From assembly GCA_964036195.1 (NCBI GenBank), contig OZ038450.1, positions 3,474,701 through 3,538,700 on the forward strand: DNA of 64,000 bases. Reading direction: 5' to 3'. Positions 2,550-60,600 of this stretch are shown here, in pieces (the first letter of the stretch is position 1; each line of letters starts with the position of its first letter). A program made the translations under genes and the position numbers. The notes under the pieces were generated by a model, which saw nothing but the letters and a program-made list of their open reading frames with translations, had not been told where the DNA came from and ran no database searches. The DNA is from Sphaerolaimus hirsutus (lineage: Eukaryota > Nematoda > Chromadorea > Monhysterida > Sphaerolaimidae).

Positions 2550-3083
2550 AAAACCCTGAGATTTTCCGCTCTTCAACCTAAAGTGCTTCAAGTCAATTAT
2601 TCCGTTCGAAAATTAAATTAAAATTCATTTTCATTTTTTATTTGGATTATTCGCGTTTAATTCTGGCCGTCAATTCGTGGTGAGTTCGGGGTTGCAATTT
2701 TTGTATTTTTGGTTGTGCGCGAGGTAATTTTGAAGTAAAAAGTTGTCTTTTATGTAAAAGGTAAAGCGCGAAAATTTTATAAGTGTTATTAGTTATTCGT
2801 TCCTAATTATCGTCGCAGTTTTAATTCACCAGTTATTCATACCATCGCATTTATTTCGTGCTAAATTCGTTCTTTAATTTTGTTCTCATTTTCGCCCATT
2901 TCGCAACAAAATAAAGATTATTTTTGGCGCAATACGTTTAACGTAGTGCGTTGAAAATAATTCGCAACTTTTCGATTAGGGTGTCGCTCAGACCTTCGTG
3001 CATTTCGGTGCCGACATTCTGGGTGGCGCATTTTAAGTAGCAATAAGTTGTGTTTTCCGGTGCTCTACTTTGAAGTGTGAAAG
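2550..3083 (+). other. Non-coding gap between pol and helicase frame
   Basis: This 534-nt AT-rich stretch has stops in all frames. An AATAAA-like signal near 2908 could end a pol transcript. The stretch could also hold a promoter or splice acceptor for the downstream frame, but no convincing TATA box or acceptor stands out. Confidence 0.5.
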
Positions 3084-9614: not shown

Positions 9615-9821
9615 ATGGATTATCCCACTTACGATATTTTTTCGTTGTGCATTAATAATACGTGTGCGTCTTATGCTTTGGATATCAACGTTATCTTCGT
9701 TTACTATACGCTCTTTTTGCTGATGGGATTATTGTTCGCGTGTTTATTTGTCTCGCTTATCGCTGTGTGTTTTCCCGTTCGTGGAGGTGGTTTTGGATTT
9801 TCGGTAGAGTTCGCTGAGTAA
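9615..9821 (+). CDS. Small LTR-embedded membrane ORF, 68 aa, hypothetical
   Basis: ATG-started ORF inside U3, in sense orientation. It encodes a protein with a Cys-containing N-terminal part (about 25 residues) and one or two strongly hydrophobic segments (FVYYTLFLLMGLL, FVSLIAVCF). It ends in a Gly/Phe-rich tail. The solo LTR on the other strand carries the same ORF at 16148-16354. I counted two base differences in 207, both synonymous. The frame stays open after the TAA for another hydrophobic stretch to 10019. A retroviral accessory-like product is only a guess; the ORF could also be chance in a young repeat. Confidence 0.35.
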   Translation: MDYPTYDIFSLCINNTCASYALDINVIFVYYTLFLLMGLLFACLFVSLIAVCFPVRGGGFGFSVEFAE

Positions 9822-18356: not shown

Positions 18357-21300
18357 GCCACATTTTGATAATACTAGCGTTTTGTTCATCGGGTGTGACC
18401 TGCTCCATACACACGTCATTGAACACGGTTGATCTGCTGCTTCTCAATCTGTTCTCCATCTTGCTGGGCGTCGCCGCCTCATTTGCATTGTTGCAGCCAG
18501 GTAATTTTGCATGATTTTTGGTGAGCTCGATAAAATAAAACCCTGTTTAATGTCAGGCAAAATTTTAACTGCCTAATCGCTGAATTGGCGCTCAGTTTGG
18601 GTGAGGTCTATTATGCATTTAAACCCATTACGCATGTAAACCCATTATACCTAGACACATACTCGCAGGGGTAAGAAAGGGAGCGGGTAACCCCACCCCA
18701 ATCCACCCAGCTATCTATCTATCCCAATGGCAATTTTTTGGCTACTTTCAACTGAACAGGCCCCCATCACAAATTGCCTAGCTATCTAGCTATCTGGTGG
18801 CAATCCCAAGCCCTGTAAAGTTTAAAGTAAAGTGTCAAATGTAAAGTCAAATGCAAAGTAAAGTGTCAATTGTCATGCAAAGTTCAGTAATAAAATCTTT
18901 TCCTTTTTGTTTTGATTGACACTTTACTTTTCATTTGACTTTACATTTGACACTTTTCTTTACACTTTACAGGGCTTGGGATTGCCCCCTGGAGCGCTTT
19001 TGAGCAATTTTACCTTAATTTTAACCCAAGGTCGCTAATTTTCATACTTTATACAGTTTTTCACCTTTAAAATCACCAGCTCGTGTGTTTTATTGCATAT
19101 TTTCAGCATGCCGGGTATAGTTAAATGCATGCCGGGTCTACTTGCGTTTACATGCGTAATGGCACAGGGCCCATTTAGAGGCCTGGGAAGGCATTGATCT
19201 CTCTGCTCTGATTTTCATACTCTAAATGCAGCTCACATTTCAGCAATGTCAAAAATCATCGGCCGCATGTTTCGCTCGTCGCCGCACGCTAACTGGGCCA
19301 TGTTGGTCACCATCGGCAAGCACGTGGTGCTCGTGTTCTACGTGCTCGACGTGCTCGTCATACAGATATGCGTGCAGGATGTGTGTTTCACTTGGGGCGT
19401 GTAAATTTCACAATTTCTTATGTTATATTACAAGTGTGTGAAATGCGCTCGCAGAGGGCGGCCAAGGGACTGACCATTCACTTCTCTATCGCGGCGTTTG
19501 TCACGCTTTTGTCGCTGGCGTCCTACATGTTGGCGCACAGCCACTACGGCTTCCTGTTGCCCACCGCCAGTCGTGAGAAAAACGTTTGTTGCGCTGCATT
19601 TACTTAGCCCGCTTGCCATTCGTCGCGGGCGAAACGTCCATATATCGATAGACTATATTCACTGAAAATATGATAAACAAACACGGAAATTTTGAGATGC
19701 GATTTCTGTACACTTATTTGCAACTCGTGATAACCAGTCCCGTAAAATTATGAATGTTTCCAGCTTACCGCATACCGTTCCACAGCGCTCGCCGACCACA
19801 CTACTTCAATTAAATTCTCGGCTCAGCCGCCATTGAAATTATTCAATTTTTATCCAGATATGAACGGAAAATGACGAAAAACCATGAATATCACTGCTGA
19901 TGATGATCTTTAACTTGAAAAAACGTTCTACTTGACAAAAAAACTTTCCCACCACAACTCAAATACCCCACAGCAGCCCCGAGGGTCCCCAACCCGGCGC
20001 GCATCGGCGCCCGACGCCAGCTGGTGCCACTCCCAGACCCTGTAAAATGCCCTGTCAAATGTGGTGCAAAGTGTCTGTCATGTAAAATGCCCTGCATAAT
20101 GGCAAACCTCCGTTTGCCATTCCCCAGGGCATTTTACATGAATTTTGCCACTTTGCATGACATTTGCCATTTCACCTGTCATTTTACAGCGCCTGGGAGT
20201 GCCACCTGGCCGGGCTTGGCTAGCACGGAGGAGCACACGCAGACCAGCGGCACCTCGTCCCTGTCCCTGTCCACCGCCAGCGACGCTGGCAATGCGGGCA
20301 AGATTAGATTGGGCGATGTGACCAAGTTGAAGCCTACGTATAATAGGAGGGATAGGTGCGTTTTTTGCTTGTTGGGTGCTTTTTGTTGTGGATATAGTTT
20401 TTTTCTAAGGGTCAGTAGCTATGGACATCAAACCCCCGGGAAATCATGTGTTGTATACCCTATCATGTGCAGGAGTCAAATAATAGTTACAATGTTTATG
20501 GATAACCATAAAGAGCCGGCAAATATAAATGGGTTTTTGATTTTGAAAAATTTAATCAATTTTCATTCGACCCCAAATAAAAGTTGGGGCGAGCCACCCA
20601 GCTCAGTTTGTAGCCCCAACTTTTATTTGGGGTCGGATGAAAATTGATTAAATTTTTCAAAATCAAAAACCCATTTATATTTGCCGGCTCTTTATATGCA
20701 TCAGGGATGTCCAGAGCAGGGTTGGCAAAATCTCAGAAAAAAATAAAAATAAAATAAAAATAAAATGGAATATTCAAGAATAAAATAAAATAAAATAAAA
20801 TGGAAAATTTAAGAATAAAAATAAAAATTGTATAAAAATTCAAATTTTTGTAAAATTGTATAAAAATTTGTATTTTTGTAAAATTGTATAAAAATTCATA
20901 TTTTTTGTAAAATCCATTGCTCGAGTCTCTACCTGTTTATTCAGGGATCTGGGGGCAGTCCCAAACATTGTAAAGTGTCAAATGTCATGTAAAATGTCAT
21001 GAAAAGTGTCAATTGTCATGATAAATGTAAATTAAAGTGTAAATTGTCATGACATGTAAAAATTAAAGTATCAATTGTCATGCAAATTGTGTTCAAATCC
21101 CATGTTTTATTTCGAAATCTTATGTTTTGTATCCAAATTATGTTGTTGTTGACTCCAAATCTTATGTGAACATTTGGATACAAAAACATAAGATTTGGAT
21201 ATAAAACATACTATGGATACAAAAACACAAGATTTGGATACACAATTTACACTTTGCATGACATTGGTCATGACAATTGCCACTTTGCTAGAAATTTTAC

Positions 21301-24300
21301 ATGACACTTGACATTTTGCATGACAATTGATACTTTACTTTACATTTGTCATGACAATTGACACTTTGCATGACATTTTACAAATGTGTCCAGCACACTC
21401 CAGTAGTCCTTCTACTGAAAATGCAAACCATTCTTATCAATAATTGTAACCTTACACTTGCAGCTAGCTAACAATACATACTGCATGCAACTTTTGAAAA
21501 GTAAGGGAAAAATTTGTCACAGGTTTTTCATGTATAGGTCTAATTATAACATTTTCTGGCCTTGCATGCATGTTTCTGATTTTTTGTAAAATTTTTGTAA
21601 AATTTTTGTAAAATGTGTCATTTTATTTTATTAATGACTTTTGGGAAAAACATAAAATAAAATAAAATGAAAGAAGAATAAAATTAAAATAAAATAAAAT
21701 TTTTATACAATTTTTATACAATTTTACTAAAATGAATTTTTATAAACCCAACCCTGGTCCAGAGGGCAATGATGTCCATGGTTTTTTTGTCACCATTTAC
21801 CATTCATATCTGGATAAATTAGCCTGTACATCTAGACCCTTTACTCATCTTAACCTGCTACTAATCTATACCCGACACTCATCTAGACCTACCCGCCACT
21901 CATCTATAAATACCCTTCTCCCCCACAGCTGCAGATGTCATGCAATGTGCACTGTGCACCTGCATAGCAACACACACATACATAAAGGATGCTTGCCGCC
22001 AGTGGCTGGCTGGAACTTCGCAAATTACATTATTTCAACGCATGCACTGCACATGCCCTTGCCAGTGCTGTAACACATGACACATGTGCCAGCTGCCATT
22101 GGCAAGACTCAGTACTATTTGTCGTGTAAAACTGGCTGTCATGTATTTTATGGGGCATTGGCATGGCACAGGGGTTAATGGCAGAGGGTTTACATGATGA
22201 GGTAGTGAGTACAAAGCTAGGGCAGTCACACAGTGTACATTGCACAACATCTGCAGCTGTTCGGGTATGGATGAGTAGCGGGTACGTCTAGATGAGTGCT
22301 GGGTCAAGATGACTAGCGGGTTGAGATGAGAAGCGACCCCATGTCAATAAAAATTTTACGATTTGATGGATAAAGTATATAGGTATCTCAAATTTTAAAA
22401 CTTAACAATGTAAATGATAAAAAACTCGACTGCCAAAACTCGACATTCTCACATCTCACATCTCACAACTTGCACATAATAAATATTACAGGCTGGGTGA
22501 CAAAAAGAAGGGTGCAAAGTCACGGGCCAGTATTGACACAGAAAGAACAGAGAGATCTGTGACAGTAGGAAACCGCAGGAAGAAGAGAGGTGGAGGTATA
22601 CTCGGATGACATTACACCGTACATTTTCCCGGAGGAAACACTCCCGCGAAGCATCATAAGAAAGGGAACGAAAGTGCACAAAACATTACGGTAGTTTTGG
22701 AGTAGCGCCAAAAAAAATATTTGGATACAGTTTGTAAACACCTTCCCGGTCACGTCCGGCACCTATTTTTTTATTTTACTTCTTACATCCTATCCCCAGT
22801 TCTAGGGCGCCCCAGAGGCTGAAACTTGGGGGAGATATTGGCGCAACCCCCCTCTACTTCGCATGAATTTGGGGGGTCGCGGCGACCCCTCTCAGGGTGG
22901 GTCGCCCCAAGTGCAAAATTTTTTTTGGCTTTTTTGGTGTCCCACAGCAGGTCCGGCACCCGCTGATTTCTGAGCTGTGGGAGGGGTATAAATCTATAAA
23001 TTTGGGAATGTGTTACCAACACCACTCCCCTACTATACACTATTCAATAATGTGAGATTAATGTGAAAAATTTCTCAAAAATTTGTTTATTCTCTTAAAA
23101 ACACCACTCCCCAATAGATGGATGACAAAAAATTCACTTTTTGGAACTTTTTTATTAGACACTTGAAGAGATGGTTTACAATACTTTAAAGGGAACAGTT
23201 TGATGTTTAAAGTTATGTAAAGAACCATACCTCTAAAATGTCTGCATTGCAAAATTTACTTAGGGTGAATTTTATGACATCATAATGACATCATTGCAGG
23301 AACAAAAATTTACAAAATTTACACTTTGAAATTCCCCCCAAGTAAATTTTGCAATGCATGCATTTTAGAGGTATGGTTCTTTACATAACTTTAAACATCA
23401 AACCGTTCCCTTTGAAGTATCATAAACCAGCTCTTCAAGTGTCTAATAAAAAAGTTCCAAAAAGTTAATTTTTTGCCATACATCTATTGGGGAGTGATGT
23501 TTTTTAGAGAATAAGATAATTTTTTAAAACTTTTTCACATTTATCTCACATTATTGAATAGTTTATGTAATTTTTATGTAAAGTTATAGAGCAAGTCCTA
23601 CCAAATCAACGATGTGGCGGGAGACGTCAACCCGTCACATCAAACGATTTGCGAGGACAATATTGCTTTTTCAAGTGTTTAGTCCATCAATTTAATGAAT
23701 AATAATAGACAAATATTGTTTAGCTGGTATTTAATAGGTTCCGCTGAACATATCTGAAGTTCTGCCTTTCGGAAACGCGACAAACTTGAAACAGTTGGCG
23801 TACACGCAATCTTTTCTTTTTTTATTTTCTTTTTTTAGAAACGTAGTTTCATAAGTTTCATAGTTCAGTATAAGACATAACTCCTATCTGTTGGTAGAGT
23901 ATCGTGTCTGCCGAGTATAAGTAAATATTCAATTAGGTTGAGGATTTTTGGATTTGTTTCTCGATCCGCTTTTCAAGTTCACAAGCTTCTGCGTGAGCGA
24001 AAATTTAAAAAAATCGTGTTTTCTACTCTACCCCTTGGCACCCAAATACAGATTCAATAACCCACAAATCGATGCGACAGGGCATGTCGGCCGAGTTCAG
24101 GGGGCAATCCCTATCACCGCAAATCGATGACCAACTGATCGATTCGGATGAAGCCTGCCGCACGGCCAGCTGGTGCCAGTCCCAGACAATGTAAAGTGCC
24201 GTGTAAAATGTCAAATGTCATGCAAAGTGTCAAAAGTCATGGAAAATCACCTGCAAAATGGCAACTCGGTTGCCATTTTGCAGGTCGTTTTCCATGACTT

Positions 24301-27300
24301 TTGACACTTTGCATGACATTTTACATTTTACAGGGCATTTTACAGGGTCTGGGAGTGCCCCCTGGCCTGATGACGATGATTCGGTGAATGATTCTTTCAC
24401 GGCCACTGGGAGCAGCGATAGTGCCAGTGAGAGGGGGGATGCGGGAAATAAAGGTGGGTTTTTTGGCAGGATTTTTTTTGGCAGGGGGTGGCTGGATGTT
24501 ATTGATTTGGAATGGAACCCTCAGGGTAATTTACATTTGTTTGTTTGAAAAGTGAATAGTAACTGAAATGTTCAAAAAATGCCAGTGCCAGCGGTATCTG
24601 GATAGGGCGTCAAAAAATTTTTTTTTTGGGGAAACGGGTAATTTCGCCTGCAGAAAACGGAAATTTGAGACCCTAAGCTGGGCCCAATTTAGCACCTGGA
24701 CGCAATTCAGCACATTAATCGCAACATAAGTTTTTGTCGACATTTTATACACGTAATAAAAAACCCACTGAATTCTGAATTTGGACACTTTCTCGGTTCT
24801 AATAGTTTCTTCTCTGGACAGCGTGCCCGGTGTTCGGGCAGGCCCGTTCGGTGCTGGGCAACCGCATGGTGCCATACGAGCCGGCGCCGAATGCGGCCGC
24901 CGATATACTCAAAAAAGGCGGAGCCAACGCGGCCGGCCGGCCCAGACTCGGCAGGATATTGAGGTTGATCAGGTACGAGTGCGCGCTGATGCTCGTCTCG
25001 CAGGCGATCAGCTATGTGAGTTTGGTGATGGGGTGTGCAGTTTGGTGTTGAAATGGCGAGAAATACTCTGGCGACGTTTCGATGGCGCCACTGGTATTTT
25101 ATATTTGCGTCATATTGTGAGCACACTCCAGCGACATTACACCTTATAATGAGAGGGCCATTGGGCCATGAAAGTTTGCCATTTTCCATGAATTTAGACA
25201 CTTTGCATGTAATTTTTCATTTCACAGGGCATTGCACATTTCACAGGGCATTTCACATTTCACAGGGCATTTCACACTTCACAGGACATTTCACATTTTA
25301 ACTGGGCATTTCACATTTCACAGGGCATTTCACATTTCACAGGGCATTTCACATTTCACAGGGAATTTCATATTTCACAGGGCATTTCAACACCCATCCC
25401 CTCTCAGTCGGTGCACCCGGCAGTGACTACCCTGTGCACGACGCACACCGGCAACCCCCACTGGCAGCGGTACTTCACCACGGTCGCCTGTTTCCTCCTG
25501 TGGGTGGTGTGCTTCGCGCTGGGCCGGTTCACCGGCACCTTGCTCGCCTGGCCGTCCAATGGCAGCACTTTGTTGCTCGCTTTTCAGGTTTGGACATTGG
25601 GGTTTTGTGTGGATTTATTTATTTATTTATTTTTGGGAACCCAACCCGACCCGACCCAACTCGAACCCGATACCCGTACACTTTTTGGAACCGAAATCCG
25701 ATACCCGAACACGACTCTACTACCCGAACCCGAACCGGATAACCGACTTCAATACCCGAACCCGAAACCGATCCTCGCAAAATTTTTGGAACCGATACCC
25801 GACCCGAAATTTGTAGAACCCGATACCCGAACCCGAAAATTTTGCAATTCCCAACCCTAGTGGGTGGTATGCGCGCTGTAGTGCAAAGGAAGCAGGGACG
25901 TATCCAGGATTTTTGAGCGGGGGGGGCTGCTTGTTCACGGATGCCGGCGAGGGGGGGGGGGCTCAGCCCCCCCCCCCCCCTTAAATTTTAGCTACATAGT
26001 GGCGGAATGGCGCCATGGCGCTGGCGCCATTGGTAGGCGCCACGCCATGGCGCCATTGGCGTTGGCGCCAGCGCCATGGAACGCTGTATATGTATGTAAA
26101 TATACATACAAAACAGAAAAAAGCACCACATTGGGTGTATTTATAACGATTTTCTGCAACATGGAGCAAATCTGACGATAATACCTTATGTTTGGTGAAG
26201 AATGCGCGCTTGCGCGCAAAATTTTTTACGCTGACGTTAAAAAAGTCGCATTTTCCGGTCACTTTCTGGTCTCGCCCCGGGAGGGGGGGGGGGCTGCAGC
26301 CCCCCCGCCCCCCCCCTGGATACGGCCCTGAAAGGAAGTGATCAAGTGAGCCAACTGAACAGTCAATTACCAAGTGATCCAGTCAGGGTAAAGTGCCGGA
26401 ACCACGAGAGTCTCATGAGTCCCACACCCTGTAAACTACCCTGTAAATGTCATATGTCATGCAAAGTGTCTAAAGTCATGTAAAATTCATGTCATGTCAT
26501 TTTTTATTATTTTGTTCAGTAAATTTTATGACCTTTCTATGACATCGGACATTTTACAAGGCATTTTACCGAGTGTAGCAGTGGCACAGGGCTCCATTTC
26601 CGCACCAAACTACAAACAAAACCCGCGCACACTCAAACAGATGGGTCGGGTCCCCTGCGCGTGCGTGCTGTGCGTGTGCCGCATGCGGTCGGGCGTCCGG
26701 CGCGACTCCATGGCCTGGATAGATTCCGACTGGGCCTTCTGCGCCGCATTGGCTGCTCTGGTGCCAGTCCCAGACCCTGTAAAGTGCCCTGTAAAATGTA
26801 AAATGTCATGCAAAGTGTGAAAAGTCATTGATAATGCCAAACTGCAAAATGGCAACGAAAGTTGCCAATTGGCAGGGCATTTTACATGACTTTTGACACT
26901 TTGCATGACATTTTACATTTTACAGGGCACTACAGGGTCTGGGACTGCCCCCTGGCCGTGTCCTACGGGCACGCACATCAGTTGACGCTGAGATATGCCC
27001 TGGAGAATCAATACTTTACTAGGATGGCGTATGTGGGGAGGGTGGGGGGTTGTTTGGGGTGGAAGGTTCTTGGGCTTAGGGGGCACTTTCAGACCCTGTA
27101 AAATGTCAAATGTTCTGCAAAGTGTCAAGTCTAGTAAAATGCGCTGGAATTTTAAGTAACTTTTAAGAGTCAGCCAGCGATGGAGTTTGGTCCCTGAAAT
27201 GGTTTTTTATTTTTTTATTTGGTATTCTGAATGACATTTGACATTTTACAGGGTCTGAGAGTGGCACCTTGGTTAATTTTGAGGAATTCATATAACTTGT

Positions 27301-27938: not shown

Positions 27939-30900
27939 ATGTCGGCTCCGCCCGCGCGGGACGTCCCGAAAGTGCGCCGCACGCCGTCGGGCAACATGTC
28001 GGGCAGCCCGAAATTGCTGTCACCTAACCCGCCTCAATCCAAAGTGTCACCGAAACCGAAACAAAGTGGGCAGAGTGCCAAAAGTGGACAATCGGTCAAC
28101 CTGTACCCCTACGAGTTGCGATCTTCCCCGGCGGGAACTTATGGCGGGAAAATAGACTCTGGTCGGGTCAGATTGCCCAGTCAATCGTCGGATGATTCTG
28201 GTTCGTTTCAGCCTTTATTATTTTGTCATACCATTCAGCCTACCATAATCTAATGAATAAAATCTTGTGATATATTTCGAAAATTAATAAACGAAAACGA
28301 AATATGATCAAAAACTGTAAAAATTTTGGTTCGTTATTCAGGTGGGTAATGTAGGGTTCCATACTAAGTATGATGTCCGCCGAGTATACTGAAGACTAGT
28401 GATGGAATTGCGCCAAAGGGCGCCTGGCGCCCTTTTTCCTGGCGCTCTTCCATCACTACTCAAACCAAAATTACTTCGTGCCGAAGGCGAAACGAATGTC
28501 TTCGCTTTTCGAAATTCAACCAGATTAGTAAACGTTAAGGTACCGTTTACCACCAAATACGGTTTTATTCTTTTACAGAACGTATAAATATGTACATATG
28601 TAGCATCCCTTTCATTATCCCAACGAAATTGGCACTGTGCCAACACAGCAGACGACGCGAGCGGTGCAGCCATCGGCGTAGCTTCCGGAGGCTGGCGGCA
28701 GCGCGACGAAACTGCAGTTTTGTTGCCCACTTCTACAGCTGGCGGTGGCCAGGTGCCAATCCCAGACTCTGTAAAATGTCAAGTGTCATGCAAAGTGTCA
28801 AAAGTCACGTAAAATGGCCTGCAAAATGGTAACCGAGGCAATACTAGGGTTCAAACGGGATCCCGATCCCGGATCCCGTGAAATTCCGGGATTTAGCAAT
28901 CCCGATCCCGAAACTTATCAAATCCCGATCCCGAGAAACTCCAAAGTCCGGGATCCCGATCCCGGAAAAATTAGTGGAAATTATCAAACGTGAAAAAACG
29001 ACGTTTTAGCATGCAAAAATGTGAACGCAAACCCCCAGCGTTCATTTTATGCCTCGTTTCTGGCATCCAACAGTGTTTTTAGACCTTTATGAACAACTGT
29101 GGATGCCAAACCATTGGCCAAAATCTCTATCCCAAGACCCCAATCCCGATCCCGAAAAAATGCCGATCCCGATCCCGTGACCCCAATCCCGGCCGATCCC
29201 GATCCCGAAATCTCAAAATACCAATCCCGATCCCGATCCCGAAAAGTCAATCCCGTTTGAACCCTAGGCAATACCGGCAACTTTTGACACTTTGCATGAC
29301 ACTTGACATTTTACAGGGTCCGGGACTGCCCCAGACTTCGCTCGTGTGCGATGAGGAATTGTGGTCGATGCAGCTGAAAAGTTTGGTGCAGTTGTGCTGC
29401 ACGCTGCCGCTGTGCGCGCTGGTCGTGTGCGTTTTATGGGCCCTGTTGTTTCATTATGAGGACAGCACTTTGACCCATTGTGATGTTGGTTTGGGGGTGG
29501 TATTTTTCGGTTTCCCGACGTTTTTCCGGTGATTTTAGTGATCGTTATATGCTGCTCCATTCGATGTAATTCTGATTGGATTTTCAAAAGTCGGTCGATC
29601 AATTTCTCTAGACAGCGTTCACACTGCATTTTTGTGACGACTCCGACAATACTTCAAAAAATTTCCATAAGTCGAGTGAAAAGTTCCATATTCATGAGTG
29701 AATGTGGTAAAGTATACATACCACCTAGGTCTATATTCATGTCAAATTTCAGATGAATCGTGTGTGTTATAAATACATGAATCTCAAGAGTGATACATGT
29801 TTATAAAAATTTTTTGCCACTGTCGGAGCCCGACAGGTGCGCCGACAATAAAACAAGTGGTCGTCACTAGGGTTGAAAAAAAATCGATTTTTTTTAACGA
29901 CCCCGATTTTTTCGATTTTTAAAAAAAAATTGATTTAAAAAAAAAAATCGATGGGGTCAAAATTAGCCCTATTTCTGCCTAAAATCGCCTCTGGGGGTAA
30001 TAAAAGCCATATAAATTGGTAGGGAATGTACACTTATGCTTTCTGTGCTAATATAAGTACTGTAGAGCTTCAGAAAAGCTTGAAAGTCAGTTATTTTTAA
30101 GTGTAAAAGTAATTAAATTGAATATTTGTGACGTGAATCACATTTCATCGACCATTTGCAATTTTGTTTGCAGAAATAGCATGTTTGTGCTCAGAACAAA
30201 ATATAAATGATATTGGAAGTGAACATGGATGCATTTGCATAAATGTTTGATGTGACAACACAAAAAAACATAACTATGAATACTTCCTAAAATGATTCAC
30301 AGCCTACCTTACATGCTTAAAAGCACACATAAATGGGTACTACACCCCCAAATTGGTTGTAAAAGCCATGAAAAAAGAAACTGATGGATTGTTTGCATGA
30401 AAGTGCGCGCTTGCGCGCAAAATTTTTGCATTTTACCCAGTGCTTGACTACCAAAAATTTTTGCCAGCGATTTTTTAAAAAAAAAATCGGTACGGGTGCT
30501 GCGATTTTTAAAAAAAAAATCGGAATTTTTAAAAAAAAAATCGCTTAAAAAAATCGCTTGCCAACCCTAGTCGTCACATTGCGCGAGGGTGACGACAAGT
30601 AAAATATTTGATCTAGTCGTCACAATGAGCATAGTTAAAAAAGTGTTGCTACTTGTCGCCAATAACGAGGCCGACCAGTCGTCACACTCATGAAAATCTG
30701 CTAAAAAATAGATTTGTCATCACAAAACGGTCTGTGACGAGTAAGATCTATTGTCGTCACTCAAGTGCAATATGAAAGGGGCATTACCTGTTTGAATAAT
30801 TCCCCGCATTTCATCTCTTTAAGTCACTCTCATTTACCTTTGTCCATTCAAACTACAAAATAACACCTAATTTCCTGCCGCAGGTGCCCAATTATTTGCC

Positions 30901-32913
30901 CTCACTTTCCGCCACAGTCAGCGAATTATCACCAGAGCGATACATTTGGCGGATTGCCATAGCACTACATTCGTTGCCGCGTTTTTTGACCGGATATTTA
31001 TATCATAACTTTTATAGAACTTGTCCACTGAGACCGGTGACATCTGTTGTGGACACAAATTGGATACTTTATTTGGGTTATTTGCTGATTTGTCTGCAAG
31101 CGGCCGAGAACTTTTTTCTGCTGCTTTTGACTTGCATTGCGTCGACTGAGAGTCATAGTTAGTGGGATTTATTTTGTATTATGTTGTCAACTTTCAGGTT
31201 TCCGGTGGCGGGAATTTCAAACATTTTTTAAAATACATTATTTTTAGAAATAAATTTCCTAGGCAATAAAATTGGCTGGAACCTCGCATCCTAATACTCT
31301 TCTGGTAGTTTATTTCCCTGCATTCTGTAATTTCTACACTTGTAATTTTGTGTTCATGTGGCCACCAATAATCTTTATCTCCACCACAATTTTCTTCAGA
31401 TCTGCACGTACTGTCGTTCTCCAGTTTCGTATCGTTCGGCATGGCCTACATGCTGTTGAACACGTATCTTTTTGACCATTCCGGTCGGCGACGCTCTTTC
31501 AGTCAGGTGAAATATTCGATTATTCAAAAATGGCTTGGGTTGGAATGGAAATTTGGGGCTGGGAACTTTACCATTTGGTTACATACCGTATTTCCTCGAA
31601 ATACCCCAGGGGTATATTTTTCCATAGTGCAAATTTTTCGGTGGGGGGTATTTCGAAGGGGTTAATTTTTCGCCAGAATTTTCAGTGTGTAGAAGGCAGA
31701 AATCGTAAAAATATGTGAAAATACATAGCTCTTGTTATTAAGCACACATATAGCCAAAATGAGATGATTACACAAGATTCGTGTCACTTTCCAGGGTGAA
31801 TTGTCCTTCCAATACAAGACAACATTTGTGGGCATCGCGGGTTTGTGCATCGCGCTCAGTGCGTATTTTTACTGGAGGCACAATACCTACTGCGAGAGCG
31901 GCGGTGAGTATTTTTAGGTTTTTTCTTTTTGTTGAAAGATTTAGCCGTGTTTATAACTATGTAGGTGTGATTGGTGATATATATTTGGAAACTGAAATCA
32001 GACTTATTTTAAATGGAACTGGAATTATGTTCGAACTATCTGGGCCGAGGGTCCGAACCATTGTTTCGCGACGCTGCACGTTTTAGTTTTTCAGATTTAA
32101 AAATCATAGAATCGGCAAACCCCACACCTAAACTGAAAACTTTGTTCTCCTCCCGGGTACACCAAACGGTTCAGCTACAATTAGGGTTCAAACGGGATCC
32201 CGATCCCGAATCCCTAAACTTTTCGAGATTTAGCGGTCCCGATCCCGAAACTCCAATCCCGATCCCGAAAATTTTCAAATCCCGATTCCGAAAAAAATCC
32301 GATCCCGAAAAAAATGGCCAACTTTACTACATGCCATTTTTGCGCTAATAAATGTGAATGGAAATTCCCGGTGTCCACTTTTCTGGCATCCAGATGTGTT
32401 TTTGAGCCCCCACACGCTAGTTGACATCGACGCCAAATGTCAACTGGTGCCGATCCCGATTCAAAGCTTGCTGACGAGCCGATGAATGACGCTCAAACGC
32501 AAGCTTTGAATTGGGAACGGAACCAGTTGACATTTGCTGTCGATGTCAACTAGCGTGTGTGGGACTTTTAGGCCTGTTTTGTCAAAAAATCATGGGAAAA
32601 ACATGTATATTAAAACCTTTTCAAAATGTCAATCGCGATCCCGAAAAAAACTCCCAATCCCGATCCCGAAAACTCGAAAAGTCAATCCCGTTTGAACCCT
32701 ACCTACAATTTCCTCCGAATTTACAATTCAACACGCGACTCAGTGTACACGCTGTTCTCCCTGTGCGAGTACGGCTACATCGTGGCGGTGGTCATGTACA
32801 ACTGGACCCTGTCCATGGACTTCCACGACAGGCGTTTGTGCGTCACCAGCGCCAACCCGCTGGAGTCTATGCTCGCGGCTACTGTGAGAACGGCGCCCAG
32901 GAAGGATACTTGA
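27939..32913 (+). CDS. PGAP2: PGAP2 (FRAG1 family), GPI-anchor remodelling factor
   Basis: Six exons, all phases consistent, 361 codons: 27939-28200, 28739-29484 (holding an inserted element at 28753-29330), 30884-31157, 31400-31506, 31795-31903, 32744-32913 (TGA). PGAP2 is a Golgi multi-pass membrane protein needed for fatty-acid remodelling of GPI anchors. Hallmarks: a TM1 exon ending LLFHYEDSTLTHC, then VPNYLPSLSATVS, ERYIWRIAIALHSLPRF, the SFVSFGMAYMLL helix, YWRHNTYCESG and VYTLFSLCEYGYIV, all in family order. An N-terminal extension of about 87 residues, basic and Ser/Pro-rich, is longer than in vertebrate PGAP2. The start ATG at 27939 is the first in frame. The gene begins 475 bases after the ENT stop, on the same strand. 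If the element in exon 2 were not spliced, translation would stop inside it. Confidence 0.9.
28753..29330 (+). mobile_element. CCAG-flanked palindromic element acting as an exact GT-AG intron in PGAP2
   Basis: The element starts GTGCCAATCCCAGAC and ends GTCCGGGACTGCC, with CCAG on both sides (28749-28752, 29331-29334). Read as an intron it gives CCAG|GTGCCA...GCCCCAG|ACTTCG, a canonical GT-AG pair that removes exactly the element plus one target copy. The frame then reads GGGQ|TSLVCDEELW without change. A younger hAT-like element (28845-29266) sits inside it. Confidence 0.85.
28845..29266. mobile_element. hAT-like element, TAGGGTTCAAACGGG termini, nested
   Basis: Perfect 8-bp duplication GGCAATAC (28837-28844, 29267-29274). 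The interior is built of GATCCC/CCCGAA short repeats. Related copies are at 32182-32701 and 60326-61148, with fragments near 51590-52200 and 58979-59132. Confidence 0.85.
29868..30569. mobile_element. hAT-like element, TAGGGTTG termini
   Basis: Perfect 8-bp duplication GTCGTCAC (29860-29867, 30570-30577). Both ends consist of AAAAAATCG/CGATTTTTT runs. The interior carries the palindrome TGCGCGCTTGCGCGCA (30404-30419). PGAP2 intron. Confidence 0.85.
32182..32701. mobile_element. hAT-like TAGGGTTCAAACGGG element with nested GTTGACA palindrome
   Basis: Target duplication GCTACAAT/CCTACAAT (seven of eight matching) at 32174-32181 and 32702-32709. Inside lies a palindrome with CACACGCTAGTTGACATCG ends (about 32407-32562), also found at 45680-45835. 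It lies in the last PGAP2 intron. Confidence 0.75.
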
Positions 32914-43500: not shown

Positions 43501-45620
43501 TTACCATAACTCTTCAATAGTACCCCCAGGTTTTTAATCATTTCAATTATGAAATGATGCATTTCATTGGTTTAAATGGTTCCGATTTCAAATATGACAT
43601 CAATTTTGAAACTACATTCCCATAACCCAAAAATAATACCCCAGGGTTTATAAAATTTCAAATTATGAAATGATGCATTTGGTTTTATTTGATGGTACTG
43701 ATTACAAAAATACACTACATTTTGACACTACATAACCATAACCCTTACCATGACACTACATAACATAATGATTCCCCTAAGTCTTAAAAATATCCAAATT
43801 ATGGAATGATGAATTTTGGGGGTCTTAATGGCTCTGATTTCAAATATGTACTTCATTTTTGTACTACATTACCATAACCCTAGAAAGTACTGCCAAGGCG
43901 AGAATAATGCCAGGGCGAGAATCCTGCTAGCGTAAATTTAAAACAACGGCACCTACAATAGGAAAACACGCACTAATGTCTAAACGCGGCCGGGGCGCGT
44001 CCGCCCGCGGCACTCGAAAATCCCGGCGGCGGTCCGTCGTTCGCGCGTCAAGAGCGCACAAAAACACCGCTGGATGGGCAAAAGAATGGCGGCGCGGCGG
44101 GCAGATTCTCTCAAATTCTAAATATAAACTTGTTGCCTCTTGCTAGCTTTTGTATGGACGGTAAAGCAGTAGAAAAGTAACGCAAAATGGCAAAAAGTGA
44201 CCTGCATGCGTGAAGAGTGGGCCTCTTGGTCGGGTTCGAATAACACCTGGGGGGCACTCCCAGACGCTGTTAAATGTCAAATGTCATGTAAAGTGTCAAA
44301 AGTCATGGAAAATGCCCTGCAAAATGGCAACTCGGTTGCCATTTTGCAGGGAATTTTTCATGACTTTTGAGACTTTGCATGACATTTAACATTTTACAGG
44401 GTCTGGGATTGGCACCTGATTCAGTGCGTCTTCGCCCAGCACCTGAAAAAAGACAATGTGAAAAAACATGTTTAACATAAAATGCGAAAAAATTATGAAA
44501 ATCATTTTTAAATTTCAGAGGTCAAAGCCTTTTGTCAAAACTGCTTTCTTTTTGTTAGATAATTTATCATTAGGTATATCTGGTGGGGCCATTTCCGCAA
44601 ATTGAGAAGTGAGAAGAAAAATGGCGAACGCAAGTGAAATTACAAAAGTGAAATTTAATGGCAAGTAAATTGCCAAAAGCGAAGTAAAAAAAGAAAAAGG
44701 AATTTCCCTTCGCTTTTGCCATTTTACTTCTCAATTCACTTCGCTTTTGCCATTTCACTTCGCATTTGCCATTTTTTTCCCACTTCTCAATTTGCGGAAC
44801 TGGACCCTGTTTCCCTTTTTGTTCAACTTCCCGAATAGCTGACATTAAAAGTCTGCGACTCGATTCGAATTGTGTGCGGCGGGGCGCAATCTCCAACCAC
44901 GTCAACGTCCGTATCTGCATCCGCGTCCCCGGTGTATACGCTGCGCGACGCAATAGCGGACTTTTGGGTTAAAATCATGTTAAAATCGTGTTAAAAATCA
45001 AGTTTCGATACTTTTGGGAGAAAATTCGGCTGGCCCGCAGCCTGTAAAATATAATGCAAGGATGTCAGAAAAATGGCAAAAAGTAATTTTTAAGTTTGCC
45101 GGAAATTTTACATGATATTTTACAGGGTGCTACACTGGCACGTTTGATGTGAAAAACCATTTTGACTCGAACTCACATTGTAAGCAAAATACGCCATCGC
45201 ACGATATAAGGCGGGAATAAAAAATTAAATGCGAGATCAAATCATATAGATGTAGGCGTGACGGCTAGTGTAAATTTTTCTTCTTTGCATACCTAAAATT
45301 CTACCCTCCACTGAATCTATGGGTGCAAGCCGAAGTGCGCCAGGATTCAGCAATAAGTGCCAGGCCGCAAGAACCATAAATTTACCTTACCGTTTACCGC
45401 AATTACACACTCCACCGTACCGTTTACCGGAAAACCGAATAGTTTCACAACCCTACCTGTGGGCACCACAAGCGGCGCCAATGTCAGCGCCGACACTTTC
45501 GAACCAGGTTTGCGACGGAACGTCCGCCATTAATCGCTGCCAGGTGCCTTCCGACAGGTCCGACTGCGAGTTTTCAAATTTTTTTGTTCGAGTTTTGAGA
45601 TGCTTCGCAAGAGCCCTCAT
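34523..45620 (-). CDS. p53/p63/p73-family transcription factor with C-terminal SAM domain
   Basis: Minus-strand exons: 45457-45620 (possible transactivation exon, [15 protein letters not shown]), 44202-44442 (split by an element), 40798-40931, 38726-38807, 37652-38375 (split by a hAT-like element), 37252-37389, 36182-36475, 35785-35897, 35203-35375, 34523-34769. From 44442 onward all phases agree and give 481 codons. The join from the first exon is out of phase, so that end is tentative. The DNA-binding domain is unmistakable: [19 protein letters not shown], a VVQRCLTH zinc site, [30 protein letters not shown] and VCACPGRD. A tetramerisation helix follows ([17 protein letters not shown]), then a SAM-like domain ([19 protein letters not shown]...[10 protein letters not shown]), as in p63/p73 and most invertebrate family members. 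The residue equivalent to human Arg273 is Lys ([11 protein letters not shown]). The final exon ends at TGA 34523, or may splice at 34556. Confidence 0.88.
34884..35109. mobile_element. Short inverted-repeat element, GTATACTCGGCGG termini
   Basis: Left end GTATACTCGGCGGGCCGCA and right end GCGGTCCGCCGAGTATAC bracket about 226 bases. Similar termini recur at 10935, 18253, 28368, 32963-33148, 45892 and 63369. Located in a p53-family intron. Confidence 0.65.
36882..37246. mobile_element. Foldback element, TACCGTATTACCTCG termini
   Basis: Inverted ends TACCGTATTACCTCGAAATA bracket G-rich GGGGGTTATT segments. Copies or fragments lie at 14207-14330, 18003-18105 and 31583-31680. p53-family intron. 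Confidence 0.65.
37806..38331. mobile_element. hAT-like element interrupting the p53 DNA-binding-domain exon
   Basis: Termini CAGGGGTATCG and CGAGACCCCTG with a perfect 8-bp duplication ACGTGAGA (37798-37805, 38332-38339). On the minus strand the coding sequence reads ...KLYARSSH before and VEPVVCPL after, contiguous when the element and one duplication are removed. Read through, it gives an in-frame stop. Interior has GATAGATAGC repeats typical of this family (also at 51696-51986 and within 62012-63360). Confidence 0.88.
38437..38676. repeat. GTTGACA palindrome
   Basis: Ends TTAGTTGACATCGCG and GTCAACTAGCGTGCG with imperfect arms. Related palindromes occur at 32407-32562, 45680-45835, 48915-49140 and 50388-50595. 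p53-family intron. Confidence 0.55.
38869..39092. mobile_element. CCAG-flanked foldback, GGGCCAGTTCCGC ends
   Basis: Arms of GCAAAATGAGAA, GAAGTGAAATGGC and GCGAAGTAAAAGCGCAAAG pair across a short centre. CCAG flanks both sides. A second copy is at about 44586-44808. Terminal and target similarity suggests kinship with the TGTAAAATG palindrome family. Intronic in the p53-family gene. Confidence 0.65.
39533..40690. mobile_element. hAT-like element, TAGGGATGG termini, with a nested hAT element
   Basis: Perfect 8-bp duplication CCCACAAC (39525-39532, 40691-40698). The ends are AAAAAGCGCTTTTT-like runs. The nested element 39702-40144 has its own duplication. A TGCGCGCTCGCGCGCG motif lies at 40527-40542, outside the nested copy. 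p53-family intron. Confidence 0.85.
39702..40144. mobile_element. hAT-like element, CAGGGACGTATCCAGG termini
   Basis: Perfect 8-bp duplication GACAAGTG (39694-39701, 40145-40152). Same family as 25893-26330, including poly-G/poly-C flanks, GCGCCATGGCGC segments and TGCGCGCTTGCGCGCA (40007-40022). Confidence 0.88.
41217..41460. other. GC-rich island, possible non-coding or 5' exon sequence
   Basis: A sharp rise in GC against an AT-rich background, with open frames on both strands. The minus-strand reading is basic ([12 protein letters not shown]). It lies in the intron between the p53 exons at 44202 and 40931. No family is recognisable; it could be an alternative promoter or exon. Confidence 0.25.
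41552..42094. mobile_element. hAT-like element, TAGGGTGTCAAA termini
   Basis: Perfect 8-bp duplication GTAAATGG (41544-41551, 42095-42102). The interior is TTTTCCGTTTTCC-type low complexity, pyrimidine-rich on the plus strand. p53-family intron. Confidence 0.85.
42095..43439. other. AT-rich intron sequence, nothing recognised
   Basis: Apart from one TGTAAAGTGTC palindrome (about 42172-42275), no repeat boundary, ORF or RNA structure stands out. Confidence 0.5.
43440..43900 (+). repeat. Degenerate tandem repeat, about 120-base unit
   Basis: About four diverged units share the order GGCACTGATTTCAAAT, CATTTTGAxACTxCATTACCATAACCC, a CCCCAGG/TAATACC-like block and ATTATGAAATGATGCAT. It ends at a short GC-rich island (43980-44110). 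Confidence 0.7.
44247..44415 (-). mobile_element. Palindromic element acting as an exact GT-AG intron in the p53-family gene
   Basis: On the minus strand it reads CAG|GTGCCAATCCCAGACC ... GGGAGTGCCCCCCAG|GTG. The 27-nt left exon part (VLGEDALNQ) and 45-nt right part ([15 protein letters not shown]) join in frame with canonical GT-AG boundaries. The CAGG target is repeated on both sides. Outer boundaries are TTTTTTCAG before and CAG|GTCACT after. Confidence 0.75.
45034..45134. mobile_element. Short CTGG-flanked palindromic element
   Basis: CTGG at 45030-45033 and 45135-45138, with CCTGTAAAAT and TTTTACAGG arms. Intronic or upstream in the p53-family gene. Confidence 0.55.
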
Positions 45621-45835: not shown

Positions 45836-48547
45836 TCCAATAAAAACACAGAATGCCGAAAAGTGTCGGTACCGAAGAAGCGTTTATACTACGCGGACCG
45901 GACGCCATGCATTTTCAGAACTATTTAAACAATCGTCGAAAACCGTAAATTACATTCACAAGGCACGGGATTGACCCAGTCTTTCACACCATCACCAACA
46001 AAACAAAACAATGCAAAATTTACTCGCAACGAGGGCGTGACCATTTTTTCCAACGACGGCACATCACCTTCCCCCAGGCCAGACATCTCGCAATTGACCA
46101 AATATTCCTTGGGTTATGGTAGTTCGGGTATAGTAGTTTAAGGAAGCAGTTTTATTTAGAGAGGTACGGTAGTGTGTAGTGATGTAAAAGCGCCATGGCG
46201 CTAGCGCCAAAGCAAAAAGCGCCATGGCGCTTTTGGCTCTAACTTGCTGTGGCGCGATTGGCGCTTGGCGCCGTGCCCACGAAAAGCGCCAAGGCGCTTT
46301 TGGCACTTGGCGCTATTTTTACCCGGCGCGAAGAACAAAATATTTGGCGCTGGCGCTGGCCCTTGGCGCTAGCACCAAAGCAAAAAGCGCCATGGCGCTT
46401 CTGACGCGTGGCGCCATTTTTACTCTGGCGCCAAGCGCTAGGTGTTGGAAAAGCGCCATGGCGCTTTTGGTGCTTGGCGCCAAAGTCCTGGCGCTTTTTA
46501 CATCACTAGTAGTGTGTAATGCTGTCGATTTTTCGCTGTGTTTCAGAAACAGAAATGACGTATGTCCACAGAGTATGAGACAGTGTTTGTACAATTTATT
46601 TGCGACTAAATAATGTATGTATGCAATAAAAATACTTTATCCATGGATATACAAACTGAACTGGCACGATTTCAACTATTTAAATAAATTCAATAATATA
46701 TTATTTTTATGTCAAAGGCACAAGCAACAGCAAAAGTGTCCATTGCCTGTTTGGAAAATTGTTATGCAAATACATGGGACGCAATGCAATACATTCGAAA
46801 ACAATAAAAAATCAGATTGGAAACTTGCCAAAAATGGAATACCGAAAATGCTAAGTGTAGGGTAGATACTGGCCGACCTTACTTTACCCATTACGTAAAA
46901 ATAAAAGTATCAACAATTGGATAGCCTTATAAATATGAGATTAGCGAAAAATCTAAGGTTCCTGAACCAAAACAACTTCCTATTTGCAATGGAGACCTGA
47001 AACACTACAACTGGCAGACTGAGTGACAAAAAAATGAAAAATAGTATGATAAATGTTGAAACGCAAGCGGTGTGAGCGAAAATGCGGTCACAGAAACAAC
47101 AGAAATTGACCCACCCAAATGACTGCACAAATATTGATTAGCTAAGTAGTTGTCGTTCGATTGGCGTTAATCATTGCTTATCAACAAATCAACAGAAGTC
47201 AATTATATATTGGTCGTTTTCAATGGGGGTTCACACGGTATATTTCGAATATCGAGTATCGAAAAGTACCATATCAAATTAAGACATGGGGAATTTTGAA
47301 GCAACAAGAAATATGAGCGTTAAAATCGATTTTATATCTTTTTACGGTATTGAATATATTAAAATTATAAAAAACAACACTCTCTACATATCGAATATCG
47401 TCAGTCATCGAAAATTTTGAAAAGATATCGAACATTGATAGTGAAAAGTATTACCGACCAAACCCCATTTTTCACTGGGCAGTTGAATACATGTGATGGG
47501 GGCAGTCCCAGACCCTGTAAAATGTCAAACGTCATGCAAAGTGTCAAAAGTCATGTAAAATGCCCGGTAAAATGGCAAACTTGCCATTTTACCGGGAATT
47601 TTAAAAAGACTTTTGACACTTTGCATGACATTTGACATTTTACAGGGTCTGGGACTGGCACATGGAAACACCCGGGCCTGTGCCTCTGTGCATGTTTACC
47701 CGTTGTGCATGTCGGGGGTATTCTAGATTTTGACCCTCCAGGGGGTTGGATATATTGCTAATCGCTCCTTTGGAAGGATAGATAGCTGGAAAAAATTTAG
47801 GGGGTTTGGGGGTTCAATGTATAGGCTTTTTTGTGATGTAGAAAAAAAGGTAAAAAAATCGCAAAAAGTAAGTGAAAAATACTAAAAATGGGTATATAAG
47901 CACATATACTACAAAAAAATAGCTGAAAAAGACAATAAAACACATGAACTAGTGATTTTGAAGGTAAAAAATCTATAAAAAGGTATGGAAATTAGCGATT
48001 TTGAATGAAAATAAGGGTCAACATGCACACCGGGTAAACATGCACAGAAGGCCTCAGTCGAAACACCCATCCCCTCAGAAAAACCTGCACTACAAAATAG
48101 CGTACATTAACGGACTACATGCCCACGCTTTTTTCAAAAGTGTAGCGCGTAGCAACCGTTCAAATATTGAGTATCCACATCTACTATCCCAAATAAAAAT
48201 AGCAGCGCAGATAAAATCGAAACACCGAGATAGCAATAAAAAGGGAGAGTCACCGTATGTAATCTTGGCAAAATGCCAAAACGGCCGTTTAGATAGACCC
48301 GTTTGTACACACACACACACACACATCATATACATCTGTCAACTATTTAGGTGTGGGCCGCCATCAGCGACCATTTCCGGTTGCTTAATCGCATTTCGCG
48401 GTTACTACCAGTAACGCGAACGTAAATACTGCGTCTTTTACTCTAGCTCATACAATATCAAATTGTATCCAATACAAACTTAGACTGGTGCCAAGATCAC
48501 ATACGTGACTCGATCCAATAAAACCCCCCAAAAGTCAACCCCCCCAG
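45836..48547. other. Intergenic between beta-catenin and the p53-family gene
   Basis: Contains a GCGCCATGGCGC cluster (46185-46505), AT-rich unique sequence (46600-47220), short TATCGAATATCG repeats (47230-47430), a palindromic element with ATGG duplication (47500-47661), a diverged CAGGGGTCTC-type hAT fragment (about 47700-48020) and a short (CA)n run (48308-48325). No gene seen. Confidence 0.6.
47500..47661. mobile_element. Palindromic element, ATGG duplication
   Basis: GGCAGTCCCAGACCCTG and GGGTCTGGGACTGGCAC ends, ATGG at 47496-47499 and 47662-47665. It is the best-conserved intergenic member of the family and shows that CTGG is a preference, not an absolute rule. Confidence 0.7.
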
Positions 48548-57626: not shown

Positions 57627-60600
57627 ATGTCCGGCGGATCTGGTGCGCAGTGCCGAGTTTACATTGGCAATGTGCCAGCCGGATATAATGATCGCGATAT
57701 TGAAGATCTGTTCGGAAAATATGGCAAAATTGAATCGATCGACTTGAAAAATCAGAGGGGCCCGCCGCACTTCGCTTTCGTTGAATATGCCGATGCCAGG
57801 TGAGATAATTTTCGTTTGTGATGTTTTTGGGATGTAAGTCTGCCGGGCAAAGAATTTAAGGGGGGGGCTGTTTCATAAATATTTATGCTTATCGTGGCTT
57901 ATCATCGCACACTATGTATAAGTGGATCCGCTTGTCTGTCTAAAGAACATTGAATCGGTAGCGATGAATATGCGAAAAAAGTCGGTTCGCCGAAGGAATG
58001 TTTTGTGGTCCAGTATTGTGTACAGCTGAGTTACCCGTGAATGTTTTTGTGGACCTATTCAACTTAACGATCATCTGCTTAACGTGACTTTCAAACGTTC
58101 GTGTAAAAATCGTTCCTCTTTCTGATAATTTTTCGGAAAGTACACGTCACGTTTAAAAAAAGCCAGCCCTTGTATAGAATCACAGTTGAAACACGGCTCT
58201 CTTTTTTATAAAACAACAAAAAGTGTACATTCAAAAAAAACCTACACCCGGGGGTTTAGTAGGGAGGGTTACCCTCCGGTTATCTATCTTGCCCCAATTT
58301 TCGCTCAAAATCGCTAATTTTCGTACCTTTTTGTAGTTTTTCACATTCAAAATTCTAATTCATGTTCCGTATTGCCTATTTTCAGCTATTTTTTTGTACC
58401 ATATGTATTACCTATTTTTAGTTTTTCTCCTACTTTTAGCGATTTTTTTCCCTTTTCTTCCTTCTATACCTTGGAAAAGCCTATATATTGAACACCCCTC
58501 CATTTTTGCAGCTATCTATCCCTCCGGAGGAACGATTTACTATCTATATGAACCCCCAGAGGGGTCGAAATCCACTAAACCCCTGCCCCCCTTGCAAAAA
58601 ATTGTTTTTCAGGGGTTTTTCCCCTGACATTTTCCCTGACAAAATGACCTAAAACACCAAAAACAATGGATGCCAGAAACGTTGGATTAAATTGGCATTC
58701 AAAACAATAGGTTCATTTAGGCACTACGCCTGTCATTGTCAATGGGCTGCCTGTCATTGTCATTCACACCACTGTTTACCATATATACCTGTGTATTAAC
58801 CTCAAACTATGGTAATGGGCGCTGTATAAAGTCCATTTGTAGTGGTGTCCAGGCCCATTGAACAGATATGTAGAGGGAGGTGGGGAAATGCGCCTTGCGC
58901 GCAAAATTTTTGCAAACTGCATACAAAATCGTCCTTTAAAAGTGCCATTTCTGGCACTTTTTGTGGCTGTGAATTTTTCCGGGATCGGGATTGGGGCATT
59001 TTTTGGGGGATCGGGATTTGGATTGGCTTTTTCAAATTTCGGGATCGGGATCGGGATTGAGGTTTCGGGATCGGGACCACAAAATCCCGAAATTTCTCGG
59101 GATTCGGGATCGGGATCCCGTTTGAACCCTACTACACCCTACCCCACCTCCAGGGACGCCTCGGACGCGGTGCGCGGCCGCGACGGCTATAAAGTGGACG
59201 GCGGCTCGCTGCACGTGGAGTTTTCGCGCGGCGTGCCGCGCGGCCGCGGCGGCGGCTTCGCCGTGCGCGGCAGGGACGACTTCGGAGGGGGCGGGCGGCG
59301 CGGCGGCGGCGACTTTGGCGACCGCGGCGGCTTCAGAGGCGGCAGGGGGGGCGGCGGCGGGGGAGGAGGCGGCTTCCCTGGCTGCAGGGTCTATGTCAGC
59401 GGTGAGGATGTGCGAGGGCGTGGGCATTTGCATGTGCAAAAGGGTGTTTGGATGATCGTTGGTGTGCGATGGAAGGTTGCGATGAACGGCGTACGGTCTG
59501 GTGCTTTGTCCCGGACCTTGTAAAATGTTAAATGTTACGCACAGTGTAAAAGTCATGTGAAACGTCATTTTCTAGGGCATTTTTCATGACCTTTGACACT
59601 GCATGACATTTGACATTTTACATGGTCTGTGAATGCCCTCTGGTCGTCGCAAGTTTTTCTCGCGCACCGATTATTTTCCGCGGCCATTTTGCATGTGCAA
59701 ATGTGTGCGCATTAATACGCACCGGGTGTAGATTGGCGTGGCTCCAAAAATGTGGATTGGATCCGATCGGATTGGATTACGGATTTACCCGGATTAGAGA
59801 GTCCGTCATTCGGAATTCTTCGGAATATCCCCGCACCCGGCGCCTCACAAAACGGATAGTAAATGGAATATCGGAATGGAAGTAGCTTGGAAAAGACTAT
59901 CATTTTGACATCGGATCTCGGGGATTGCCTTTACCTTGTAACCCGTATCCGGAAGGAATGGAACCACCCCTCTTACTTTGTTGGCCGGTATGTTGCAGTG
60001 GCATGTGCATTTATGCGTGGCAAGCGTTTTTGAACCGCTTGTTTCAAGGGTAATTAAATGGCTACAAAGTAATCAATCACTGCAGCTTGTGTAATTTAAG
60101 ATGTCTATTGTAAATAGTTTCATTTTTTAACATTTACCTGGGTAGTTTAGTAGAGCGTTCTTCTCAATACTGTAATGTGTAAATAAAATTGGGTTGAGTC
60201 GTTCATGTGAAATATCCAATCTCTTTTTACTGACATATCTGGTGCCATATATTCATTTACATGGACAAATATACAATTTAGGGTGAGGACGATATGACTT
60301 TTCGATATCGATATTCGATATTTTATAGGGTTCAAACGGGATCCCGATCCCGGATCCCGTGAAATTCCGGGATTTAGCAGTCCCGATTCCGATCCCCAAA
60401 ATTTTCAAATCCCGATCCCGAGAAACTCCAAAGTCCGGGATCCCGATCCCGGAAAAATTAGTGGAAATAATAAAAAGTGAAAAAATGACATTTTTGCATG
60501 CCAAAATGTGAACACAAACCCCCAGCGTCCATTTTGACTGAGGCCCTCTGTGCATGTTTACCCGCTGTGCATGTAGACCCTAATTTTCACACAAAATCAC

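Follow-up and report, generated by a model that had tools for sequence, protein, structure and literature searches.

The PGAP2 gene in this nematode DNA is interrupted by a palindromic transposable element, which raises the question of whether the insertion acts as an intron and whether it belongs to a family that makes introns. An earlier note had described it as an introner, an exact GT-AG intron inserted into a coding exon. We addressed the question through the anatomy of the elements, their copy number, an orientation bias and the continuity of protein domains after exact removal, all read directly from the DNA, together with a predicted RNA hairpin. On these grounds, we regard it as very probable that a family of palindromic MITEs acts as introners in an animal genome, the PGAP2 element being one copy. 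Positions refer to the window, that is, the whole 64-kb stretch analyzed.

The element at the PGAP2 locus

PGAP2 was identified by a Pfam Frag1 match (E 8.7e-19) and by named PGAP2 homologues. The gene and the element comprise the following features.

27939..28200, forward strand: putative first coding exon upstream of PGAP2, an open frame only
28646..28752, forward strand: upstream coding part ending in GGGQ, an open frame with an uncertain start at about 28646 or 28739
28750..28752, forward strand: left target duplication, CAG
28753..29331, forward strand: outer palindromic MITE with tip A (GTGCC) 5′ in the PGAP2 sense, from sequence reading and the inverted repeat
28753..29334, forward strand: predicted GT..AG intron, comprising the element and the right CAG
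28757..28805, forward strand: inverted repeat, left arm
28837..28844, no strand assigned: left 8-bp duplication of the nested element, GGCAATAC
28845..29266, no strand assigned: nested hAT-like MITE with TAGGGTTCAAACGGGAT ends, labeled from presumed hallmarks
29267..29274, no strand assigned: right 8-bp duplication of the nested element, GGCAATAC
29280..29328, forward strand: inverted repeat, right arm
29332..29334, forward strand: right target duplication, CAG, source of the 3′ AG
29335..29484, forward strand: PGAP2 exon 3′ of the element (TSLVCDEELW..), from the frame and Pfam
30884..31159, forward strand: next PGAP2 exon (VPNYLPSLSA.., Frag1), from the frame and Pfam

Palindromic and non-autonomous, the outer element is a DNA transposon that harbors a hAT-like element. 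Its inverted repeat is 49 nt long, with arms that are 94% complementary, and it measures about 150 bp without the nested part. The nested element (422 bp) has an 8-bp target duplication and short inverted ends, which we take to be the hallmarks of hAT MITEs, and it matches at least 40 further places in the genome (40 of 6014 candidates scored). It is rich in GATCCCGATCCCG repeats.

As previously noted, CCAG lies at 28749–28752 and again at 29331–29334, and GTGCC begins the element at 28753. The duplication had been read as the 4-bp CCAG and the element as ending at 29330. The flanks of other copies carry 3-bp duplications, so the extra C of the right-hand CCAG (29331) is the element's own; the duplicated target is CAG, 29331 is the last base of the element, the right duplication occupies 29332–29334 and the intron would span 28753–29334. 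The proposal that the second CCAG supplies the acceptor AG holds, in that the right CAG gives the 3′ AG of the predicted GT..AG intron. Given that this copy has tip A 5′ and CAG duplications, GT..AG at 28753–29334 is its expected intron, the removal of which would restore the exon exactly.

The unspliced GGGQ frame indeed meets a stop within the element (..GTC ACG TAA), and precise removal brings GGGQ|TSLVCDEELW together in frame. The retained frame had been offered as evidence of splicing, but it is automatic for any target-duplicating insertion. Together with the CCAG repeats it fits any transposon insertion, and thus the argument of the earlier note proves little by itself.

The claim that a coding exon, rather than an existing intron, was interrupted is borne out for the family elsewhere, but not at PGAP2: the insertion site lies in an N-terminal extension to which nothing aligns in the five homologues compared, so homology is silent on the former continuity of this exon. 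The copy could instead occupy an ancestral intron or part of the 5′ untranslated region, or simply not be removed, and a methionine codon closely downstream (WSMQLKS), like the unaligned extension, speaks for such a reading. Nevertheless, a clean 3-bp duplication joins the PGAP2 flanks, the reading frame stays open for 55 codons on the left and the family occupies conserved exons elsewhere. While a 5′ untranslated position is possible for this copy, we consider these alternatives as a whole unlikely.

The repeat arms also contain good-looking internal splice sites, GTAAAA and TTTTACAG (28771–29316), the use of which would keep the PGAP2 frame with a 36-nt, 12-residue insert, VPIPDS/GPGLPQ. The PGAP2 copy has one terminal C fewer than full-length copies, and for this reason the internal pair is frame-neutral here; in full-length copies it would leave 18 + 16 + 3 = 37 nt and shift the frame. 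Moreover, the sites are present in both arms and would not select orientation. This alternative was dropped on account of the frameshift, and we deem it very improbable.

A transposon family with asymmetric tips and CWG target duplications

Within the 64-kb window, a pattern derived from the repeat matched 23 times, against 0.11 expected. As for a multi-copy mobile element, a 31-base A-tip pattern with one mismatch allowed gave 882 matches in the 348 Mb genome, and a second A-tip pattern with CAG in front gave 2288, with no matches for either reversed control; the larger count takes in CTG copies because one mismatch was allowed. The tips are asymmetric. Tip A, GTGCCA(G/A)TCCCAGACCCTGTAAAATG, begins GTGCC, and tip B, GGGGCAGTCCCAGACCCTGTAAAATG, begins GGGGC.

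In the examined loci we collected 56 copies detected through both tips, excluding L001, which duplicates the window, and counting the near-duplicate pairs L038/L039 and L029/L030 twice. Identical 3-bp flanks were found in 31 (14 CTG, 14 CAG, 2 CGG and 1 CAT), while those of the other 25 did not match, partly owing to wrongly placed ends. Both tips were intact in 32 copies, 24 of which were 139–196 bp long. Insertion of the family produces a 3-bp CWG duplication. CWG targets are also used by some animal Harbingers.

Further copies in the window are as follows.

20024..20205, forward strand: tip A 5′, CTG duplication, open frame (AS|WPGLAS)
24173..24361, forward strand: tip A 5′, CTG duplication, open frame (AS|WPDDDD)
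26761..26951, forward strand: tip A 5′, CTG duplication, nucleoside-transporter-like exon (AAL|AVSYGH; Pfam E 0.019, below the curated cut-off)
27080..27267, reverse strand: tip B 5′ in the gene sense, intronic between two exons of the same gene
44251..44415, reverse strand: coding flank not recognized
47499..47661, reverse strand: coding flank not recognized
59502..59639, forward strand: 3′ of RRM exons, probably intronic

The nucleoside-transporter-like region (about 19.9–27.5 kb, forward strand) holds three exonic copies (20024, 24173 and 26761), all CTG, and one intronic copy in the opposite orientation. Elsewhere in the window, two long adjoining open frames lie at 3081–6947 (forward strand), the second with AAA_12 helicase similarity and perhaps a mobile element, and near-identical 120-residue open frames (SHQQKERIVNEDNVDIQS..) at 9366–9728 (reverse strand) and 16241–16603 (forward strand) represent a dispersed repeat.

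Exact removal restores conserved domains

From the search list we took 36 A-tip copies (20 on C1 and the first four listed on each of C2, C3, C4 and C6), and seven of them gained Pfam support at E<0.01: those in exons for an Srx receptor, a xanthine/uracil permease, an RsmB-F methyltransferase, a Tudor protein, a DNA polymerase alpha/epsilon subunit B, a DOMON protein and a VWA protein. In OSCP1 (locus L014), exact removal of two copies joined a recognizable gene. The OSCP1 alignment (17–105 to profile 1–89) spans one CAG and one CTG copy. Alignments also run across the joins of CTG copies in the permease (1–87 to profile 221–306), DOMON (5–79 to profile 37–111) and Srx (6–110 to profile 6–108) exons, and of CAG copies in the VWA (48–104 to profile 21–79) and DNA_pol_E_B (27–85 to profile 99–157) exons, all with few gaps or none. 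Of the nine Pfam matches in the orientation test described below, those to methyltransferase and Tudor fall on one side of the join only. The receptor exon (L040) matches the nematode-type chemoreceptor families Srx, Srv and Srg.

The re-joined exons of a cadherin (L012; E 0.052) and of the nucleoside-transporter-like gene at 26761 scored below the curated cut-offs. Further exonic copies, among them those in a BTB-BACK gene, were recognized as open frames; several coding calls on family copies rest on such frames alone, and the coding appearance of L037, L043, L052, L053 and L065 comes from the open frame only. The BTB-BACK gene is tandemly duplicated (L029 and L030), and the same insertions are common to both copies, indicating that they are older than the duplication.

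Exonic copies share one orientation

A codon score proved unreliable as a strand indicator, as it favored the wrong strand for the permease copy L041, and orientation was therefore judged by Pfam on both strands. Frames open for at least 15 codons on each side of the exact join numbered 75 for the tip-A-5′ sense of the 56 copies and 63 for the tip-B-5′ sense. Single-frame scans covered 44 of the tip-A and 56 of the tip-B frames; the remaining 31 and 7, respectively, include the sole frames of some copies. The cadherin copy (wrong right end) and the PGAP2 copy (shifted end) fell outside this test. Matches at E<0.01, marking interrupted coding exons restored by exact removal, were found in 9 of 44 tip-A-5′ frames, compared to 0 of 56 tip-B-5′ frames (best 0.012; Fisher p 3.7e-4). 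This difference indicates that orientation is selected, as expected if the GT of tip A were the 5′ splice site.

Among 14 exonic copies listed by eye in a contiguous C1 stretch, with tandem duplicates counted once, 13 had tip A 5′ and one was unclassifiable. In introns or probable introns where the gene strand is known, six copies listed by eye were mixed (four tip B 5′, two tip A 5′). Insertion itself is thus not visibly strand-biased, whereas survival in exons is. Introner-like behavior is accordingly well supported for the family, which occupies conserved coding exons in one orientation and leaves restored domains, but less so for the PGAP2 site, which is not conserved.

These results bear on a different kind of removal. 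SOS splicing is triggered by the pairing of inverted repeats and is independent of splice sites and orientation. If such excision operated here, the inverted repeats would pair in the mRNA, an endonuclease would cut the element out and RTCB would ligate the exons. It would account for the exact removal of CTG copies without an AG, and the inverted repeats of the family can pair in RNA, with a long hairpin predicted. However, excision of this kind predicts no orientation effect, contrary to the Pfam matches above, and the GT sits on tip A. We therefore judge it improbable. SOS splicing does remove transposons from animal mRNAs, according to the available text of PMC13247085, but it is ligase-based and termed unconventional there, while the orientation bias here points to the use of splice sites.

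Predicted splice ends of CAG and CTG copies

With tip A 5′, GT lies at the exact 5′ boundary and the right duplication places CAG or CTG at the 3′ end. Five of the nine Pfam-supported copies are CAG and four CTG, like the family at large. All eight CAG copies examined had exact GT-AG ends, whereas none of ten CTG copies had AG at the exact 3′ end. The 14 exonic copies on C1 had the ends GT-AG (5), GT-TG (5), GT-CG (1), GA-AG (1) and GG-AG (2). Three exonic copies, L029:7172, L029:3835 and L029:8346, have GG or GA instead of GT at the exact 5′ end, one of them with a CCAGG repeat. The exact GT-AG intron claimed for PGAP2 thus has the ends expected of that copy, but these are not family-wide, as CTG copies would end in TG.

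Alternatively, the CTG copies could be spliced as GT-AG or GC-AG at other AGs with a few residues gained or lost, and TG ends would not exist. No GT-AG pair leaving the protein unchanged was found for any of the ten CTG copies within the searched range. The smallest GT-AG change was 3 residues in three copies (24173, 20024 and L065), through GGGAG near tip B, which speaks for this alternative, but 5–17 residues in the other seven. An element-internal GC-AG pair would add 7 residues in eight of the ten; the smallest GC-AG change in L052 was 9.3. In the DOMON copy, another GC-AG pair alters only about one residue (1.3 by script count; without a Pfam score), so TG is not needed there. The exact join scored better in Pfam than the tested alternatives for OSCP1 (63.1 bits, compared to 42.1 with a GT-AG deletion and 50.7 with 7 residues added), the permease (70.3 compared to 48.1 and 59.2), DOMON (33.9 compared to 26.5 with 7 added) and Srx (32.1 compared to 21.5 with 7 added). 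The exception was the Srv profile on the same receptor, which was nearly flat (22.5 compared to 22.2 with 7 added). Since exact joins mostly outscore the tested GT-AG and GC-AG variants, a predicted GT..TG removal is the best-supported reading for most CTG copies, and the use of other AGs throughout has a rather small chance of being correct.

A predicted hairpin may bring the exon ends together

The RNA of the permease copy (L041) folds in silico as one long hairpin (−99.3 kcal/mol; z −15.2 against 200 shuffles). In its minimum-energy fold GUGC and CCCC are unpaired at the hairpin foot, and the three other folded copies likewise have four unpaired bases at the start.

The best reading of the family is that its 5′ splice sites are element-borne and its CWG 3′ sites target-borne. 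With tip A 5′ in a gene, the GT of the 5′ splice site and a C-rich tract at the 3′ end would come from the element, and the final CAG or CTG of the intron from the right-hand duplication. A long hairpin formed by the element RNA would leave about four bases free at either end and bring the splice sites, and hence the exon ends, together. GTGCCA of tip A is a weak 5′ splice site, and a hairpin joining the exon ends may explain why this site and a TG 3′ end suffice. From the DNA, we infer that the element is removed at the RNA level, that the spliceosome does so and that CTG copies use TG as their 3′ end. As to how this came about, we lean slightly toward the view that the asymmetric tips evolved to supply the 5′ splice site, that about half of the new introns end in TG through the CWG duplication, and that removal is exact without an AG because the long hairpin holds the ends together.

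Comparison with known systems

Non-canonical introns have been studied in Fritillaria. In humans, splicing of U2-like introns that have GT-TG or GA-AG ends is established, but these are rare single cases in the available text of PMC4176328, whereas a mobile family would make many.

As far as the accessible parts of the source go, Chrysochromulina-type introners (Gozashti et al. 2022, PMC9860276) resemble the present family in being non-autonomous DNA elements with their own 5′ splice site and a 3′ site from the target duplication, leaving mRNA length unchanged. They differ in their 4-bp duplication and lack of TIRs, compared to the 3-bp CWG duplication, long palindrome and asymmetric tips here, where, moreover, the host is an animal and insertions with a CTG duplication would have TG at the end. 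Amoebophrya introner elements, as presented in the portion available of PMC7789003, also have near-end inverted repeats, short direct repeats at exon borders, predicted hairpins and non-canonical ends. However, they belong to dinoflagellate parasites and have very diverse, RNA-seq-supported ends, while here one family has fixed GT and WG and its splicing is predicted from DNA. The 3-bp target duplication is shared with PIF/Harbinger-type MITEs (PMC2213677, in the part available), but the tips leave the superfamily unsettled. Taken together, an asymmetric-tip palindrome, a 3-bp CWG duplication, an animal host and predicted TG ends would set this family apart from introners of the Chrysochromulina type. 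Our literature search, from which subscription papers were mostly absent, found no animal introner family with TG ends, which is weak evidence of absence.

The origin of new introns is an old question. A survey of 3,325 genomes placed introners in only two animal groups, by the available text of PMC9860276; here a single animal genome has hundreds to thousands of A-tip matches, and a substantial fraction of the sampled copies is exonic. Near-identical elements ending in CAG or CTG would allow the 3′ splice-site needs of a hairpin intron to be tested directly. If the proposed reading is true, the genome would amount to a natural experiment, genome-wide in extent, on the choice of 3′ splice sites independently of AG, or on a hybrid of spliceosomal and structure-directed excision.
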